Made by a program: the position numbers and the translations under genes. The notes beneath the pieces are model-generated. The model ran no database searches and was not told the DNA's origin. It worked only from the letters and a program-made list of their open reading frames with translations. A DNA stretch of 38,703 nt. Origin: a virus. Location: positions 1 to 38,703 of the IMG/VR virus record IMGVR_UViG_3300038551_000127. One strand, written 5' to 3'. Of the stretch, positions 7,548 through 18,531 are shown one piece after another (within the stretch, counting starts at the first letter, position 1; each line of letters begins with the position of its first letter).

Positions 7548-7577
7548 GGGGGGAGGGAGGTAATAATCTCTCCCCCC
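7548..7577 (+). promoter_or_regulatory. Strong GC hairpin after the capsid gene
   Basis: An 11-bp stem (7548-7558 with 7567-7577, one G-U pair) closes an 8-base loop. Six consecutive G-C pairs at the base make it by far the most stable hairpin in this AT-rich region. No U-tract follows, so it is not a standard intrinsic terminator. It is more likely an mRNA 3' stabiliser or a partial attenuator that separates the abundant capsid message from the genes behind it. Confidence 0.6.
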
Positions 7578-7603: not shown

Positions 7604-8161
7604 ATGAAGGTTCAATCTCAAACAGAGGTCACTGTGTTTGACCCTAAAAGTTATTCAGCAATGCAGGTCGGTAAACCATACAGGAAATATCAAAAAACTA
7701 TTTTGGGTAAGGTCTTTGTAACAGTTCTTAATCCCTTTTCAGGACAGCCGGAGGGGATTGTAATTGAAGGTGATCCATCACTTCCCGAAGATCAGGAAAA
7801 AATAACTGTTTGTACTTGGAATGTGAAAGAGGATGTTTTCTTTAGACGTATGAATGTTACACACTTTACGTCAGGAAACCTTAGAGAGATTCCTATTCCA
7901 GAGCTTCCTGAAGAGGATATAAGACCTAAATCAGTTAATGAAATAAGTGATGAAGAAATTCTAGATTTATTAAATAAGCCATTCTTAGCTTTAAAGAATA
8001 GACTTAACAAATTTACTGCGCCTGCTCCGGCGTTTCGTATTTTAAAGAAGGCAGAGGACATGGAAAAGTCAGAAAAAATACTTGATGCCATTAGAGCAAG
8101 ATTAAGTGAATTAGAATTTGTATTGCCCGCTAAATTAGAAGCTGAGAAGCAGGAGAGTTAA
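7604..8161 (+). CDS. Hypothetical protein following the capsid gene
   Basis: A GGAGG site (7594-7598) sits 5 bases before the ATG, and the gene ends in a TAATG junction with the connector gene, so it is a real member of the head operon. The 185-residue product begins with a beta-rich part (residues 1-100) and ends with a charged helical part (about 105-180) rich in Glu, Lys and Leu. I do not recognise a family. Proteins at this position are often capsid-associated or linked to connector assembly, but no specific role can be given. Confidence 0.7.
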   Translation: MKVQSQTEVTVFDPKSYSAMQVGKPYRKYQKTILGKVFVTVLNPFSGQPEGIVIEGDPSLPEDQEKITVCTWNVKEDVFFRRMNVTHFTSGNLREIPIPELPEEDIRPKSVNEISDEEILDLLNKPFLALKNRLNKFTAPAPAFRILKKAEDMEKSEKILDAIRARLSELEFVLPAKLEAEKQES

Positions 8162-8652
8162 TGGCAACAACAGATTTAACTGAGTATATTGATCGTTTAA
8201 GATTACATCTAGGAGATACTGAACCTGCATCCTATAGATACCTTGATGAGTGGCTAACTGTGGCCTTATATGGAGCAGTTGAGCTTTTGATGCCTAGATG
8301 GAATTACAAGTATCTCCTAGATGATTCTCATGAAGCCTATAGAAACCCTACTATAGTATTCTTATTTCCAGAACCTCCTGTAATTGAAGAGGGTGATCTT
8401 TGGCCGATATTACTTCAAGCATCTATTATAATTAAATCAGGATCATTAGAAAATTCTTCATGGAATTTTAACTCTTGGCGTGATGCTGAAATAGCTTATT
8501 CTAATCTTGAATCTGCTAGAAGTAAAGATAAGTCTTTAGACAGAGATATAGAACTTTTAGATCAAATGCTTCCTTGGAGAGGAAAAAGACTTGCCGCTCC
8601 AATTAAGGGACATTTACCAGGATACTTAGAAAATGTTTATGAACATGATTAG
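8161..8652 (+). CDS. Probable head-tail connector (adaptor) protein
   Basis: This 163-residue, mostly helical protein is encoded after the capsid gene. The pattern is an N-terminal helix TEYIDRLRLHLGD, a helix around YLDEWLTVALYGAVELL, a hydrophobic ILLQASIIIKSGSLE segment and a charged final helix. This resembles the gp6/gp15-type adaptors that bind under the portal. The start is in a TAATG junction with the previous gene, so it is translationally coupled. The call rests on size, helical pattern and order. A structured RNA element follows immediately. Confidence 0.55.
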   Translation: MATTDLTEYIDRLRLHLGDTEPASYRYLDEWLTVALYGAVELLMPRWNYKYLLDDSHEAYRNPTIVFLFPEPPVIEEGDLWPILLQASIIIKSGSLENSSWNFNSWRDAEIAYSNLESARSKDKSLDRDIELLDQMLPWRGKRLAAPIKGHLPGYLENVYEHD

Positions 8653-8653
8653 C

Positions 8654-8714
8654 TTTAGCAAGTAGCTTTAGGGTTCTAAAGGTCATTCTGCGAAAGCGGA
8701 TACTACTTGCTAAA
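8654..8714 (+). ncRNA. Three-way-junction RNA element (cis-acting leader candidate)
   Basis: A perfect 12-bp outer stem (8654-8665 with 8703-8714) encloses two hairpins. One is 8666-8681 (six pairs, GGTT loop). The other is 8687-8700 (five pairs including one G-U, GAAA tetraloop of the GNRA class). Linkers of 5 and 2 bases join them, so the whole is a compact 61-nt three-way junction. It fills the gap between the connector gene and the next gene, and ends 12 bases before the AGGAG that serves the ATG at 8742. It is not a tRNA, and no CTGATGA core of a hammerhead ribozyme is present. A control element for translation or RNA processing is most likely. Confidence 0.6.
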
Positions 8715-8741
8715 TTTATGTCTTTTAGGAGAAAAAACACG

Positions 8742-9326
8742 ATGATCAAAGCTAATACACGTACAAAAGGTCTTAGAAGTAGATCAAAAATAAAGGGAAA
8801 ATTAACAGTTACAGTATTTGGACCCGATGGGCAAATCAAACGAAGAGCACCTAATTTCTTTCAAAGACTTCTTGGATTAAACGGAAGTCCAATGGTTTCT
8901 ATCAATCATAATATTGTCACCGATGAGGGCGATGCTATGATTGCTGATATAATGGCACATACACCAGCCAGGGTAAAAGTAGATGGAACTAACGGGTATA
9001 TTCAAGTAGGAACTGGATGGACTGGAACTACACCAAAAGCTAATACAGTTCTTAATACACCTACTGGAACTCCAGAACTTATGGATTCTACTTACCCTAA
9101 AGTTAAGGGAACTTTTGGTGCTGCTAATGATAATGTAACTCAATATAGATCAACCTTTGAGGCCGGTGATTTAAATGCTACTGGAATCGATGAGGCCGGT
9201 TTAGCAAATAACATTACTCCAGCTTCCTGGGATTTATTAGCCTATGCCCAGATTACTCCAGCCGTTGATGTTAGTACAGCAGATACTTTACAGGTTGATT
9301 GGGAACTAACTTTCCTAGGTTCATAA
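8742..9326 (+). CDS. Virion protein, possible head/neck fibre base
   Basis: I start this gene at 8742 rather than at the in-frame ATG at 8718. AGGAG (8727-8731) lies 10 bases before 8742, while 8718 has only the RNA stem upstream. The 194-residue product has a basic N-terminus (about 1-30) followed by a beta-rich domain rich in Gly, Thr and Asn. It ends in QVDWELTFLGS, a final strand of the sort I know from many phage structural proteins of unknown function. It is the first gene of a cassette lying between head and neck genes, so it may anchor the fibres encoded downstream. That role is inferred. Confidence 0.6.
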   Translation: MIKANTRTKGLRSRSKIKGKLTVTVFGPDGQIKRRAPNFFQRLLGLNGSPMVSINHNIVTDEGDAMIADIMAHTPARVKVDGTNGYIQVGTGWTGTTPKANTVLNTPTGTPELMDSTYPKVKGTFGAANDNVTQYRSTFEAGDLNATGIDEAGLANNITPASWDLLAYAQITPAVDVSTADTLQVDWELTFLGS

Positions 9327-9329
9327 TTA

Positions 9330-10124
9330 ATGTTGCAGCTTACTGGAACTAGTGATCTCATTAGAGTTGTTACTAGTGCAGCGGCTGATATTGAAGTTCA
9401 TGCATCTTGGGTAGATAATAATGCTGGAACTATAACTCCTGGCAGAACTAATACAGCCAGCATTGTAACAGCAACAACAACCACTATTGTTGGCTCTCCT
9501 TCAGCAAATATACAAAGAAGAGTTGTATCCTTAAGTTTAAGAAACAATCATGCTTCTACATCTTGTGATATCACTGTAGATCACACTGATGGTACAAATG
9601 CTGATACTTTAATAAAAGTAACTCTATTAGCTGGTGAAGCTTTAATTATGGATAGTGAGGGTGAATGGCATCATTTTGATTCAAGTGGAAATGAGTATCA
9701 ACGCTCTGTAGCTATGGCTACGAGATCAGAAATGGAATCTGCATCAAGTCTTGTTGTAGGAGTTTCTCCAGGAATAATGCGTTATCATCCAGGAATAGTA
9801 AAAGCTTGGGCATCTATAAAAATGATCAATGGCGTCCCATTATTAGTTGATGGATACAATCTAGAATCAATTACAGATACGGCTGCTGGTCAAATGTCTT
9901 TTGATTTTGTCGAAAACTTTGCCAATGCCAACTACTGTTTACAAGCATTAATTGAAAGAACATCAACATCTCTTACAGCAACTAACTTAAAATATTGTAA
10001 CATCAGATTCGGTTCACAAATAGCGGCTGGGGCTTTAATAGAGGTTTATGATGGAACTGCTACTACTCATGTTCAAGAAGATCCAAACGCCTATTGTTTT
10101 ATTTGTCTTGGAGATGCCGCATAA
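9330..10124 (+). CDS. Fibre-like virion protein, tandem paralogue 1
   Basis: This is the first of three adjacent genes encoding related proteins of about 261-264 residues. It has an N-terminal conserved beta domain: GTSDLIRVVTSAAADIEVHASW (start of protein), TPGRTNTASI, SLSLRNNHASTSCDITVDH, and TLLAGEALIM followed by WHHFD (near residues 100-120). The C-terminal half is more variable and resembles a small jelly-roll or receptor-binding domain (YHPGIVKAW...FENFANANYCLQALIERT). The N-terminal signature recurs in many uncharacterised Caudoviricetes proteins. There is no clear ribosome site; the gene begins 4 bases after the previous stop and is probably coupled. The exact place in the virion is unknown. 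Confidence 0.65.
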   Translation: MLQLTGTSDLIRVVTSAAADIEVHASWVDNNAGTITPGRTNTASIVTATTTTIVGSPSANIQRRVVSLSLRNNHASTSCDITVDHTDGTNADTLIKVTLLAGEALIMDSEGEWHHFDSSGNEYQRSVAMATRSEMESASSLVVGVSPGIMRYHPGIVKAWASIKMINGVPLLVDGYNLESITDTAAGQMSFDFVENFANANYCLQALIERTSTSLTATNLKYCNIRFGSQIAAGALIEVYDGTATTHVQEDPNAYCFICLGDAA

Positions 10125-10909
10125 TGATACAATTAGCTGGAACTTCTGATCTTCTTCGTGTCATTACTAGTGCCGCAGCCGACATAGAATCTCATGTTTC
10201 TTGGGCTGAAAATAATGCCGGAACTGTAACTCCAGGAAGAACTAATACTGCAAGTATAATCAGTGCAACTACTACAACCATACTTGGTTCTCCAGCATCT
10301 GGTGTACAGAGAAGAGCAAAGTTTATTAGTTTAAGAAATAACCATGCATCTACATCTTGTGATGTTACTGTAACACATGAGGATGGAACTAACACAGAAA
10401 CATTAATAAAAGCAACATTACTTGCTGGGGAGCTTCTTATTTATGATGAAGAGGGAAAGTGGCATCATTATGATGCTAATGGTGGAGAGTACCCAACAAA
10501 TGGAATAATAGCCCTTCGTACAATAGTAGAGGGAGCAGAAAGTTTAACAACTTTAGTAACCCCTGGTAGACAACATTATCATCCAGGATCATCAAAAGCC
10601 TGGGCTAGAGCTGGAGTTACTGGAAACTTAATAGCATCCTATAATATGACTAGTGTTACTGATACTGGCGCTGGTAGAGCAACTTTTAATATTAATGTTG
10701 ATATGGCAAGTATATCATATTCAATTGTTGCAACAGTTCAACGTGTGAATGCTAATATAGCTGTAACAGATTGGAAAACAGCTATGATAAGGTTTGCTAC
10801 TTTTGGAGTTGGTTCTTTTGAAATAGAATGTTATGATTATACTGCCACAACTGCTGTTCAAGAAGATCCAGCATCATATCATGTAGTTGTTTATGGAAGG
10901 CAATTTTAA
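10124..10909 (+). CDS. Fibre-like virion protein, tandem paralogue 2
   Basis: The start is set at 10124, in a TAATG junction with paralogue 1. The reading frame stays open upstream to a further ATG at 10094, but the residues conserved among the three copies begin right after 10124. The product of 261 residues is collinear with paralogue 1: GTSDLLRVITSAAADIESH, TPGRTNTASI, SLRNNHASTSCDVTVTH, TLLAGELLIYDEEGKWHHYD, then a variable C-terminal half around YHPGSSKAWARAG. Divergence is concentrated in the C-terminal half, consistent with a shared attachment domain and separate binding functions. Function not established. Confidence 0.65.
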   Translation: MIQLAGTSDLLRVITSAAADIESHVSWAENNAGTVTPGRTNTASIISATTTTILGSPASGVQRRAKFISLRNNHASTSCDVTVTHEDGTNTETLIKATLLAGELLIYDEEGKWHHYDANGGEYPTNGIIALRTIVEGAESLTTLVTPGRQHYHPGSSKAWARAGVTGNLIASYNMTSVTDTGAGRATFNINVDMASISYSIVATVQRVNANIAVTDWKTAMIRFATFGVGSFEIECYDYTATTAVQEDPASYHVVVYGRQF

Positions 10910-11700
10910 TGTTAATAGTTCAATCTACGACAGATATTTTAAGAGTGGTTACTGGACAAGCCGCAGATATCGAAGTCCACGTATCCTGGATGGATAAAAA
11001 CGGATCTACATTTACTCCAGGGCGTACAAATTTAGCAAGTATAACAACTGCAACCACTACGAATATAATTGATATGACGGGAGTAGCAGCTGGAACTTAT
11101 AGAAATATTAAACTTTTAAGTTTAAGAAATAATCATGCATCCACAGCATGTACTATTACAATCGAACATAATGATGGAACTAATATAGAAACACTTGTCA
11201 AATGTATTTTATTACCAGGAGAAACACTGATATTTAGTGGTAATGGATGTTGGAGACATTATAAGGCAAGCGGAGCAGTTTATTCAGCAAGTGGTCCAAT
11301 GGCAACGCAGTCTCAAATGGAAACAGGCACTAGTACATCAATTGTTGTAAGCCCTGGTACACAAAAGTTTCATCCAAGTCATCCAAAATTTTGGGCAAAG
11401 TTTGGGATTTCTGGAAATATATTAGATTCATGGCAAGTAAGTAGTGTAAGTGATGATGGAGTTGGGTTAGCAACAGCGACTCTTGTTCCAGGATTTTCTG
11501 CATCTACAGGGTGGATTGGACAAATCACAACTGAAAGAGCTGCAACATCTTTAGCTGTAGCAGATGCTAGAGATCAGGCTATTACATCTACTGTTATGGG
11601 AGTTGATACAATGGTAGTTGAATGTTGGAATCATGCAACAACAGCCGCCAGAGCTGATCCTGCTGCTTGGCATATAGCTGGTTATGGGGATGAGCCATAA
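10909..11700 (+). CDS. Fibre-like virion protein, tandem paralogue 3
   Basis: This is the third and most diverged copy (263 residues), again starting in a TAATG junction. The shared positions are TTDILRVVTGQAADIEVHVSW, TPGRTNLASI, SLRNNHASTACTITIEH and LLPGETLIFSG, then W-x-x-Y. The C-terminal half (FHPSHPKFWAKFG...AAWHIAGYGDEP) keeps the same skeleton: a 'HP-x-x-x-KxWA' step and a closing strand. Three copies in a row suggest duplication followed by diversification, possibly giving heterotrimers or alternative receptor specificities. That is inference. The stop overlaps the ribosome site of the next gene. Confidence 0.65.
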   Translation: MLIVQSTTDILRVVTGQAADIEVHVSWMDKNGSTFTPGRTNLASITTATTTNIIDMTGVAAGTYRNIKLLSLRNNHASTACTITIEHNDGTNIETLVKCILLPGETLIFSGNGCWRHYKASGAVYSASGPMATQSQMETGTSTSIVVSPGTQKFHPSHPKFWAKFGISGNILDSWQVSSVSDDGVGLATATLVPGFSASTGWIGQITTERAATSLAVADARDQAITSTVMGVDTMVVECWNHATTAARADPAAWHIAGYGDEP

Positions 11701-11710
11701 GGAGATAAAT

Positions 11711-12241
11711 ATGGAAATTAAACAAACTTTTATTTCTATTAGCCTAGATACTGGACGTGTGGCTATAATGGGATTCGTTACTCAGGGTAAGGGTTCTATA
11801 CTTCCAAGTGGTGCTATATGGATTGATGAAGAAAAAAACTGGTGGTATAGAGAACCTACAGATGAGAATATTAAAAATGAAATTGAACGCACTATGTTTT
11901 CTAATGGTCAACCAACTATATACAGAATAATCTCACAAGAAGAAATTCCAATTGATAGAACATTCAGAGATGCTCTTTTTGATGATGGACAAAAGCTTAT
12001 GTTTAATATGGAAAGAGCAAGAGAAATTCACAGGGACCGCCTAAGAAGATTAAGAGTAGCAGAGTTTGAAAAGAATGACATAGAGCTAAGGGATGCATCT
12101 CTAGAAAAAGATGAAATTAAATTACAAAAAGCTTTAGAAAAGCGCGATGTATTAAGAAATATCACAATTCATCCTGAAATTGATGCCGCTAAAAATATAG
12201 AAGAACTAAAAATTGCAGGATTATCTGTATTAGAGGAATAA
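11711..12241 (+). CDS. Tail-fibre-chaperone-like protein
   Basis: I use the ATG at 11711 because AAGGAG (11699-11704) sits 6 bases ahead; the in-frame ATG at 11684 lies inside the preceding gene. The product is 176 residues. The middle carries the pattern PIDRTFRDALFDDGQKLMFNM-ERAREIHRDRLRRLR (described in two parts here), followed by a long charged helix and a final DVLRNITIHPEIDAAKNIEELK. This 'RTFRDA...AREIH-x-D-x-x-R' arrangement is common in small phage proteins encoded next to fibre genes, which are often thought to help fibre folding. The neighbour downstream is a repeat fibre, which fits such a role. Not proven. Confidence 0.5.
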   Translation: MEIKQTFISISLDTGRVAIMGFVTQGKGSILPSGAIWIDEEKNWWYREPTDENIKNEIERTMFSNGQPTIYRIISQEEIPIDRTFRDALFDDGQKLMFNMERAREIHRDRLRRLRVAEFEKNDIELRDASLEKDEIKLQKALEKRDVLRNITIHPEIDAAKNIEELKIAGLSVLEE

Positions 12242-13645
12242 GTGTCTACAGGATTTTATTCTCAAGAACTAAGAGGTGAAGGGTGGTTCGGATCTGATTT
12301 TGATATAAAGGGGTGGTTTAGCCAAGAGTTTATTATTAGTGCTGGTGGAGGAGCTTTTTTTGCATCCATTTCTAATACAGTAGGAATAACTACATCATTA
12401 TCAAATTCTAGAAATATCATAAAAACATTAACAAATACTGTTGGTATAACAACAGCTCTAACTAATGCTAGAAATATTATTAAATCATTATCTAATACTG
12501 TGGGAATAACAACTACATTATTGAATTCTCGAAACATAATAAAATTCTTATCAACTACAGAAGGAATTACTACAACTTTAATAACTTCTAGGAATATTAT
12601 AAAAAGTATTGCTGATACAATTAATATTGGTGACACTCTTTCTAGACTTCTGATTAAGGTTACTTTAATAACAAATAGTATTGGTATTACAGACATAATA
12701 AGTAGAGCAGGAATATTTAGAAAAACTATTCAAAATACAGTCGGAATCACTGATATTTCTTCTAGAATAGGGATATTTAAGAGAGAGATAATTAACACAA
12801 TCGGAATAACTGATGTTATTTCAAGAAGTAAAGGTGTTATTTATTCTATAGCCGATACAATTGGTATTACAGATGTTCTTACAAGAATAGCAACAAAGAT
12901 AGTTTTAATTTCAAATATAGTTGGAATAACTGATATTAAAACACAAACATTAACATATGTTAGATCTATTTCTGATGCCGAAGATATAACTGATGCTGTA
13001 ACTAAATCAATTCATTATGTTAAGGCTATCGCTGATATCGTTGGTATAACTGATGTAATCTCTACTGCACTTATAAAATTTATATTTATAGCAAACTCTG
13101 TAGGTGTAACGGATGTACTTTCAAAAGCATTAAATTATAGTAGAACAATTTCAGATAGTGTAATTGTAACATCTTTATTATCAAGAATTTATACAGCTTA
13201 TAGAATTATTTTAGATACAGAATCATTAAATGATGATTTAATGAGACAATTAAGAGCTATCAGAAGTATTTCAAACTCTATTAGTATTTTAGACACTATA
13301 CAAACATTTAAATCTATAATTATAGCTCTGCTTGACACTGTTGGAATTACAGATATACTCTCTAGAGTTGAAAATTTTAGAAGAAGTATATCAGAAAACA
13401 TTTCTATAACAGATATTTTAAATAGAGCTTTATATAAAATTGTAGTCTTAGCAGATACAGTTGGAATTATAGACATTCTATCAAGATCAAAGATAATTTT
13501 AGTTCTTATTTCTGATACTATTTTAATATTTGATACACTTTCAGCAATTGCTTGGAAAGTTATTAGAAGAGTTAGTAAATTAGTTTTAAATGATAGAAAA
13601 CTTGGGGATGTCATTATATCAATAATTCGTATAAAAAGTGACTAA
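12242..13645 (+). CDS. Long fibre protein of ~20 tandem 20-residue repeats
   Basis: The start is GTG directly after the previous stop, with AGAGG (12233-12237) 4-5 bases before it. After a short N-terminal part (about 1-42), the rest of the 467 residues consists of roughly twenty tandem units of 20 residues with consensus D/N-T-V-G-I-T-D-x-L-S-R-x6-[RK]-x-I. The first four units (GITT-x-L-x-NSRNIIK) are nearly identical to each other; later ones have drifted. Such regular hydrophobic repeats fit the shaft of an elongated fibre or whisker. No receptor-binding tip domain is visible. The neighbouring fibre-chaperone-like gene may help it fold. The fold itself is not known to me. Confidence 0.65.
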   Translation: MSTGFYSQELRGEGWFGSDFDIKGWFSQEFIISAGGGAFFASISNTVGITTSLSNSRNIIKTLTNTVGITTALTNARNIIKSLSNTVGITTTLLNSRNIIKFLSTTEGITTTLITSRNIIKSIADTINIGDTLSRLLIKVTLITNSIGITDIISRAGIFRKTIQNTVGITDISSRIGIFKREIINTIGITDVISRSKGVIYSIADTIGITDVLTRIATKIVLISNIVGITDIKTQTLTYVRSISDAEDITDAVTKSIHYVKAIADIVGITDVISTALIKFIFIANSVGVTDVLSKALNYSRTISDSVIVTSLLSRIYTAYRIILDTESLNDDLMRQLRAIRSISNSISILDTIQTFKSIIIALLDTVGITDILSRVENFRRSISENISITDILNRALYKIVVLADTVGIIDILSRSKIILVLISDTILIFDTLSAIAWKVIRRVSKLVLNDRKLGDVIISIIRIKSD

Positions 13646-13653
13646 GAGGACCT

Positions 13654-13950
13654 ATGAATGTATATGATGTAAGTGATAAAATTAGAGTAACGATGTCTTT
13701 TTACTTAGTTGATGAAGATGGAAATCAAGTTCTTATGTCACCAACTAATATTACTTTAAGTATTAAGAAACCCGATAAGACTGTTACTACTTATCAAAAG
13801 ACTGATCTTACAGAGCAAGAAACTGGAATATTTTATTTAGAATTTGTGGTGGATCAGGTTGGGACTTGGCACTATAGAGCAGATTCTAGCGGAGTAGTAA
13901 ATGCAGGAGGAGAATCAAGCTTTAGAGCAAGATTAAGTAATATTGTTTAA
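13654..13950 (+). CDS. Small Ig-like beta-sandwich protein
   Basis: AGAGG lies just before the ATG. The 98-residue product reads as a single beta-sandwich: VSDKIRVTMSFYLVDEDG, TLSIKKPDKTVTTY, ETGIFYLEFVVDQVGTWHYRAD and a closing SFRARLSNIV. The spaced 'PD/PDGT', 'TGIFYLEF' and 'G-T-W-H-Y-R' steps are typical of small Ig-like phage proteins found near structural genes. It may be a minor virion protein decorating the head or fibre, as Ig-like domains often do. No enzymatic motif. Confidence 0.6.
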   Translation: MNVYDVSDKIRVTMSFYLVDEDGNQVLMSPTNITLSIKKPDKTVTTYQKTDLTEQETGIFYLEFVVDQVGTWHYRADSSGVVNAGGESSFRARLSNIV

Positions 13951-18433: not shown

Positions 18434-18467
18434 AACTGAATAAATTTTGACATTCAGGGAGATTAAT

Positions 18468-18515
18468 AAAGGGGTCATGATACTTAATAAGTTGTCATGA
18501 CCCCTTTTAATTTTT
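18468..18515 (+). terminator. Rho-independent terminator between tail tube and chaperone genes
   Basis: A 13-bp perfect stem (18468-18480 with 18495-18507) with a further ACTT/AAGT stem inside makes a long rod, followed by TTTTAATTTTT (18505-18515). It lies in the only sizeable gap between the tube gene and the chaperone gene. I see no promoter between it and 18532, so some readthrough must occur. It probably reduces the message for chaperone and tape measure relative to tube. Confidence 0.85.
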
Positions 18516-18531
18516 CATAGGAGAGGATAAA

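Follow-up and report, generated by a model that had tools for sequence, protein, structure and literature searches.

Structured RNAs that lie behind a gene can control the mRNA of that gene, as in phage lambda, where sib, a simple hairpin cut by RNase III, brings about retroregulation of int. In bacteria, a regulatory RNA structure behind the stop codon of a gene is highly unusual (PMC2864571). The L17 downstream element (RF01708) is a structured RNA of this kind, found directly 3' of a ribosomal protein gene in Lactobacillales and Listeria, in many cases without another gene nearby downstream, and it is regarded as a potential 3' UTR thought to act on the upstream gene (PMC2864571). The put RNA of phage HK022 (~70 nt) acts in cis on RNA polymerase without a dedicated protein: its two adjacent stem-loops, located downstream of early promoters, bind the zinc-binding domain of the beta' subunit and suppress termination (PMC9378689).

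We analysed a 38,703-nucleotide sequence of an uncultivated virus (IMG/VR record IMGVR_UViG_3300038551_000127; hereafter the window, meaning this whole stretch), in which a 61-nt element (8654–8714, + strand) follows a presumed head-tail connector gene. While its effect is a matter of inference, nine other genomes keep both its stem and its core despite changed stem bases, which indicates that the element is a real RNA structure, apparently one without a name. Like the L17 downstream element, it lies directly 3' of a gene and is more stable on the sense strand through G-U pairs, but it differs in sequence and structure and has no match in Rfam. In principle it also resembles sib, a structured phage RNA that lies 3' of a gene and controls its mRNA; unlike in that simple hairpin, the loop region is the conserved part. 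It is similar in size to the put RNA, from which it differs in having one closing stem around a core, in lying between presumed late genes and in showing no excess of promoter-like sites.

The window element and its boundaries

The predicted fold has a minimum free energy of -24.3 kcal/mol (z -5.1), and none of 200 dinucleotide shuffles was as stable, in agreement with the initial judgement that such a structure is unlikely by chance. The perfect 12-bp closing stem (P1) first described from the letters of the window was borne out, and both of the inner hairpins described with it are present in the predicted fold (Table 1). The element begins 1 nt past the connector stop codon (8650–8652) and ends 12 nt upstream of the AGGAG of the next gene. 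A tRNA search of the element was negative, as the sequence-only reading had anticipated, and its dismissal of a hammerhead ribozyme also stands: the element contains no CUGAUGA, has no Rfam match, and its three-way junction is not conserved.

Table 1. Features of the window at and around the RNA element
Feature	Position	Strand	Sequence	Remarks
Upstream gene, presumed head-tail connector (by position)	8161–8652	+		Order head protein, 185-aa gene, connector conserved
P1 5' arm	8654–8665	+	UUUAGCAAGUAG	Begins 1 nt past stop; covarying stem, nine genomes; cognate-pair test
6-bp hairpin	8666–8681	+	CUUUAG-GGUU-CUAAAG	Window-specific (L130: different hairpin); not kept in most relatives
Purine box	8678–8682	+	AAAGG (family: RARGG)	Alignment A7; GG invariant
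5-bp hairpin, GAAA loop	8687–8700	+		Predicted fold; conserved part is the inner two G-C pairs only
Core	8690–8699	+	GC-GAAA-GC-GG (family: GC-NNNN-GC-GG)	GC, GC and GG invariant in 9/9 aligned; loop variable
P1 3' arm	8703–8714	+	CUACUUGCUAAA	Fold and cognate-pair test
Next gene	8742–9326	+		AGGAG 8727–8731; inferred start 8742, alternative 8718; first gene of the connector-glycosyltransferase cassette (window, L041)

At Rfam gathering cut-offs, no match was found in the window or in five related loci; the families covered, none of which reached its cut-off, included hammerhead, twister, pistol, hatchet, HDV-like and riboswitch classes, and permissive scans of the element gave chance-level matches only. 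In two pattern scans of IMG/VR, no hit outside the known clade had a comparable P1 as well as the core; the best candidates there required six G-U pairs and had a distant stem. Two covariance models (R1 and R2) detected part of the carriers and the others weakly or not at all, because the core varies in length and its variable inserts were not modelled. The element was not reported in the open literature searched.

Three other accounts of the interval were rejected. The 3' flank of P1 is UUUAUGUC, and no site resembling an intrinsic terminator, a GC-rich hairpin with a U run behind it, occurs at the element. Stop-codon readthrough can be discarded because tandem stops occur in several carriers (UAAUAG in L041, L076 and L090) and the window has further in-frame stops, and a coding sequence because the P1 sequence is scrambled and differences in core length are not multiples of three.

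Carriers, relatives and neighbouring RNA structures

Relatives were gathered by scans with the presumed connector, the preceding 185-aa gene, the head protein and the portal, which retrieved >100 viral contigs together with a single contig from a Bathyarchaeota metagenome-assembled genome (MAG); all of the sequences compared are metagenomic, and the contigs closest to the window (L119 and L120) stop short of the element. A similar element directly follows the stop of the same gene in ten distinct genomes, the window included (the others being L041, L076, L039, L130, L090, L074, L131, L069 and L135). Apart from the close pair L090 and L074, the carriers have stems unrelated in sequence. In non-carrier relatives the gap is nearly always only ~10–45 nt long and holds a ribosome site. 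One carrier, L135 (JAUWDF010000002.1), is the phage-like contig binned in the Bathyarchaeota MAG, for which a host relationship and mis-binning are both possible; no second case was found in the 398 genomes of that phylum searched.

In a tree of three proteins, all ten carriers fall within one clade of eleven (support 100/100), which takes two changes to explain: a single gain and a single loss. The element was lost in L045, sister to L130 (support 99/97) and identical to it in gene order, so by this comparison it can be lost without rearrangement and is not indispensable. Deletion from a relative with unchanged gene order, which the sequence-only reading had named as counter-evidence, was thus seen once, and 10 of the 11 clade members retain the element. 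A short palindrome, GTAAAAATTTAC, stands behind the connector stop of L045 (L005, L016) and is possibly a scar of element loss.

Searches of Pfam, PHROG and an annotated phage collection with the presumed connector protein gave no match. Downstream, the window and L041 have a fibre cassette of ~5 kb between the element and a glycosyltransferase gene, which follows the element directly, without the cassette, in the remaining eight carriers. Kept before either neighbour, the element thus goes with the connector gene end rather than with the fibre genes, and the proposal that it sets the ratio of head to fibre proteins is unsupported, given that the fibre cassette is missing from the site in eight of ten carriers. 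The connector-glycosyltransferase junction is a cassette hotspot, with extra genes of ~2.7–5 kb in several lineages (window 8742–13950, L199, L202 and L019). Within the window cassette, three fibre-like paralogues stand in tandem and precede a 467-aa protein built of degenerate repeats with the approximate pattern IxDTVGITDxLSR (9330–11700 and 12242–13645).

Other RNA structures occur in the same gene row. Directly 3' of the major head protein gene, the window has a perfect hairpin of the GGGGGGAGGGA/TCTCCCCCC type (7548–7577), and most relatives have similar GGGGAGG/CCTCCCC hairpins at this place. Behind the presumed major tail protein gene, the gap at 18434–18531 holds a three-strand RNA that is more widespread in the family (about 35 relatives, for example L039, L131, L135, L042 and L068) and has no plausible Rfam match. 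It consists of a 5' strand, UGAC (18448–18451), which in relatives reads UAGCC, GACC or UAUAGU, a purine stretch and a strong hairpin (18468–18507) whose 5' arm is complementary both to its own 3' arm and to the 5' strand. Pairing of this strand with the arm is stronger in own than in swapped combinations (-5.4 versus -4.2 kcal/mol; 0 of 5,000 permutations; 35 distinct sequences), and the two covary, as in a strand-exchange switch. Lastly, seven of the eight carriers that lack the fibre cassette (L076, L039, L090, L074, L131, L069 and L135) bear another GC-rich hairpin ahead of the glycosyltransferase gene. This second hairpin lies ~15–80 nt past the element and has the form GCCGCCYTG...CAGGGCGGC or AGCCTCCCCACT...AGTGGGGAGGCT; it is absent in the window, L041 and L130. 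The version in L131 bears a weak likeness to the DUF2815 RNA (RF03084), a hairpin-before-ribosome-site motif, at 14.6 bits (E 2.9) and thus below the gathering score of 41.2; this likeness concerns the second hairpin and not the element.

Closing stem and core

The sequence of P1 has almost fully turned over between carriers, with pairing retained in each. When the core was held fixed and the flanks were shuffled, the longest flanking helix exceeded that of the shuffled flanks in eight of ten carriers (P<0.01), the two exceptions being L069 and L135, in which P1 is broken by an internal loop. Cognate P1 arms, picked by eye, formed duplexes with a mean energy of -16.1 kcal/mol, compared with -6.3 kcal/mol for arms swapped between genomes (P<0.0002). 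Neither test draws on alignment A7, a trimmed nine-row alignment with P1 lined up by hand, in which seven of seven P1 pairs show changes on both sides; pair counts from A7 lean towards P1, and this count is weaker evidence than the other two tests. Compensatory changes, the absence of which would have spoken against the initial proposal, are therefore present: P1 has changed on both sides and still pairs. Pairing in every stem at the orthologous site, despite unrelated sequences, supports the proposal of a functional RNA structure. The + strand fold is more stable than that of the - strand in all ten carriers, with 21 G-U pairs on the former and three on the latter, which argues that the element works as mRNA-sense RNA.

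Between the P1 arms lies a core of 22–37 nt with the family pattern RARGG-(6–9 nt)-GC-NNNN-GC-GG, in which GG, GC, GC and GG are invariant in all nine aligned sequences. A7 thus sets eight invariant core columns against seven P1 pairs that have all changed. The tetraloop varies (GAAA, GAUA, AAAC, GAAC, GAUU, AUAA and AUAC), in the GNRA hairpin the pairs at the two positions beneath the GC/GC step fail to form in five and seven of nine sequences, and a hairpin of at least 4 bp just 5' of or overlapping RAGG was seen by eye in the window and L130 only. Since the extension of the GC/GC step is mostly unpaired and the 6-bp hairpin is not kept in most relatives, the three-way junction with a GNRA loop, correctly described for the fold of the window itself, is the window's version and not the family's: the architecture conserved across these sequences is P1 around a compact core.

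Candidate roles at the module boundary

We tentatively favour, at somewhat below even probability, a lineage-specific, static, cis-acting element of a presumed late mRNA, whose core is recognised and which governs the fate of that mRNA at the boundary between modules. The long P1, whose sequence is free to vary, presents the conserved core directly behind the connector stop. Invariant loop bases are more than a plain hairpin requires, so the core would have a partner that recognises it: a protein, the ribosome or RNA polymerase. Across all carriers P1 begins between the stop codon itself and ~8 nt past it, so a terminating ribosome would cover its 5' arm, and the element would fold only while the end of the upstream gene is free of ribosomes. 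The mRNA of the head part may be shielded or cleaved at its 3' end, or the polymerase may be let through into the next module. This reading also gains from the conserved hairpins that follow two other genes of the row, those for the major head protein and the presumed major tail protein.

A plain 3'-end hairpin, with P1 merely an exonuclease block or RNase III site and the core as filler, is unlikely. It would fit a long stem past a stop codon, and the head and tail protein genes are likewise trailed by hairpins, but it leaves the eight invariant columns amid a scrambled stem unexplained.

Small self-cleaving ribozymes typically have a compact, conserved core inside a stem of free sequence, as this element does. 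A ribozyme closed by P1, with the invariant core as its active site, might cut the late mRNA between modules, and the site does lie between genes of one presumed transcript. We nevertheless consider it rather improbable, given the absence of matches to Rfam, known ribozyme classes included, the lack of a defined cleavage site and the absence of the element from other phages in the two pattern scans.

The translational switch suggested by the sequence-only reading fares poorly and is improbable too. The element does lie within the leader of the next gene, and several P1 3' arms are CU-rich and able to pair with GGAG, so that P1 or its 3' arm might pair alternately with the Shine-Dalgarno sequence, or the core might be a ligand aptamer. 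However, pairing with the own Shine-Dalgarno sequence is no better than with swapped ones (-6.9 versus -7.0 kcal/mol, P = 0.60), neither P1 arm has a third strand to pair with upstream, downstream or in the core, and the next gene is not the same across carriers. Control of late-mRNA fate at the boundary, and not of the next ribosome site, is the most likely function we would infer.

A separately acting small RNA, to which a stable, compact RNA in a short gap might point, is very unlikely: promoter-like sites near the element are no more frequent than in shuffles, the + strand has no terminator, and the element is always directly behind the same gene. A structured DNA site for recombination or packaging, as the extra genes admitted at the connector-glycosyltransferase junction might suggest, is least probable of all, since the G-U pairs favour + strand RNA and relatives without the element also have inserts there.

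Beyond the favoured reading of a recognised cis-acting element, we give little credence to the more far-reaching prospect that the core represents a novel class of small catalytic RNA, or a novel phage RNA acting directly on the transcribing polymerase or on the ribosome terminating at the stop codon. From a single late transcript a phage must make its proteins in widely differing amounts, and few RNA elements are known to bring this about from within a row of genes. The element described here combines strong comparative evidence and a length short enough for in-tube testing with an unusual place behind an upstream stop codon (PMC2864571).
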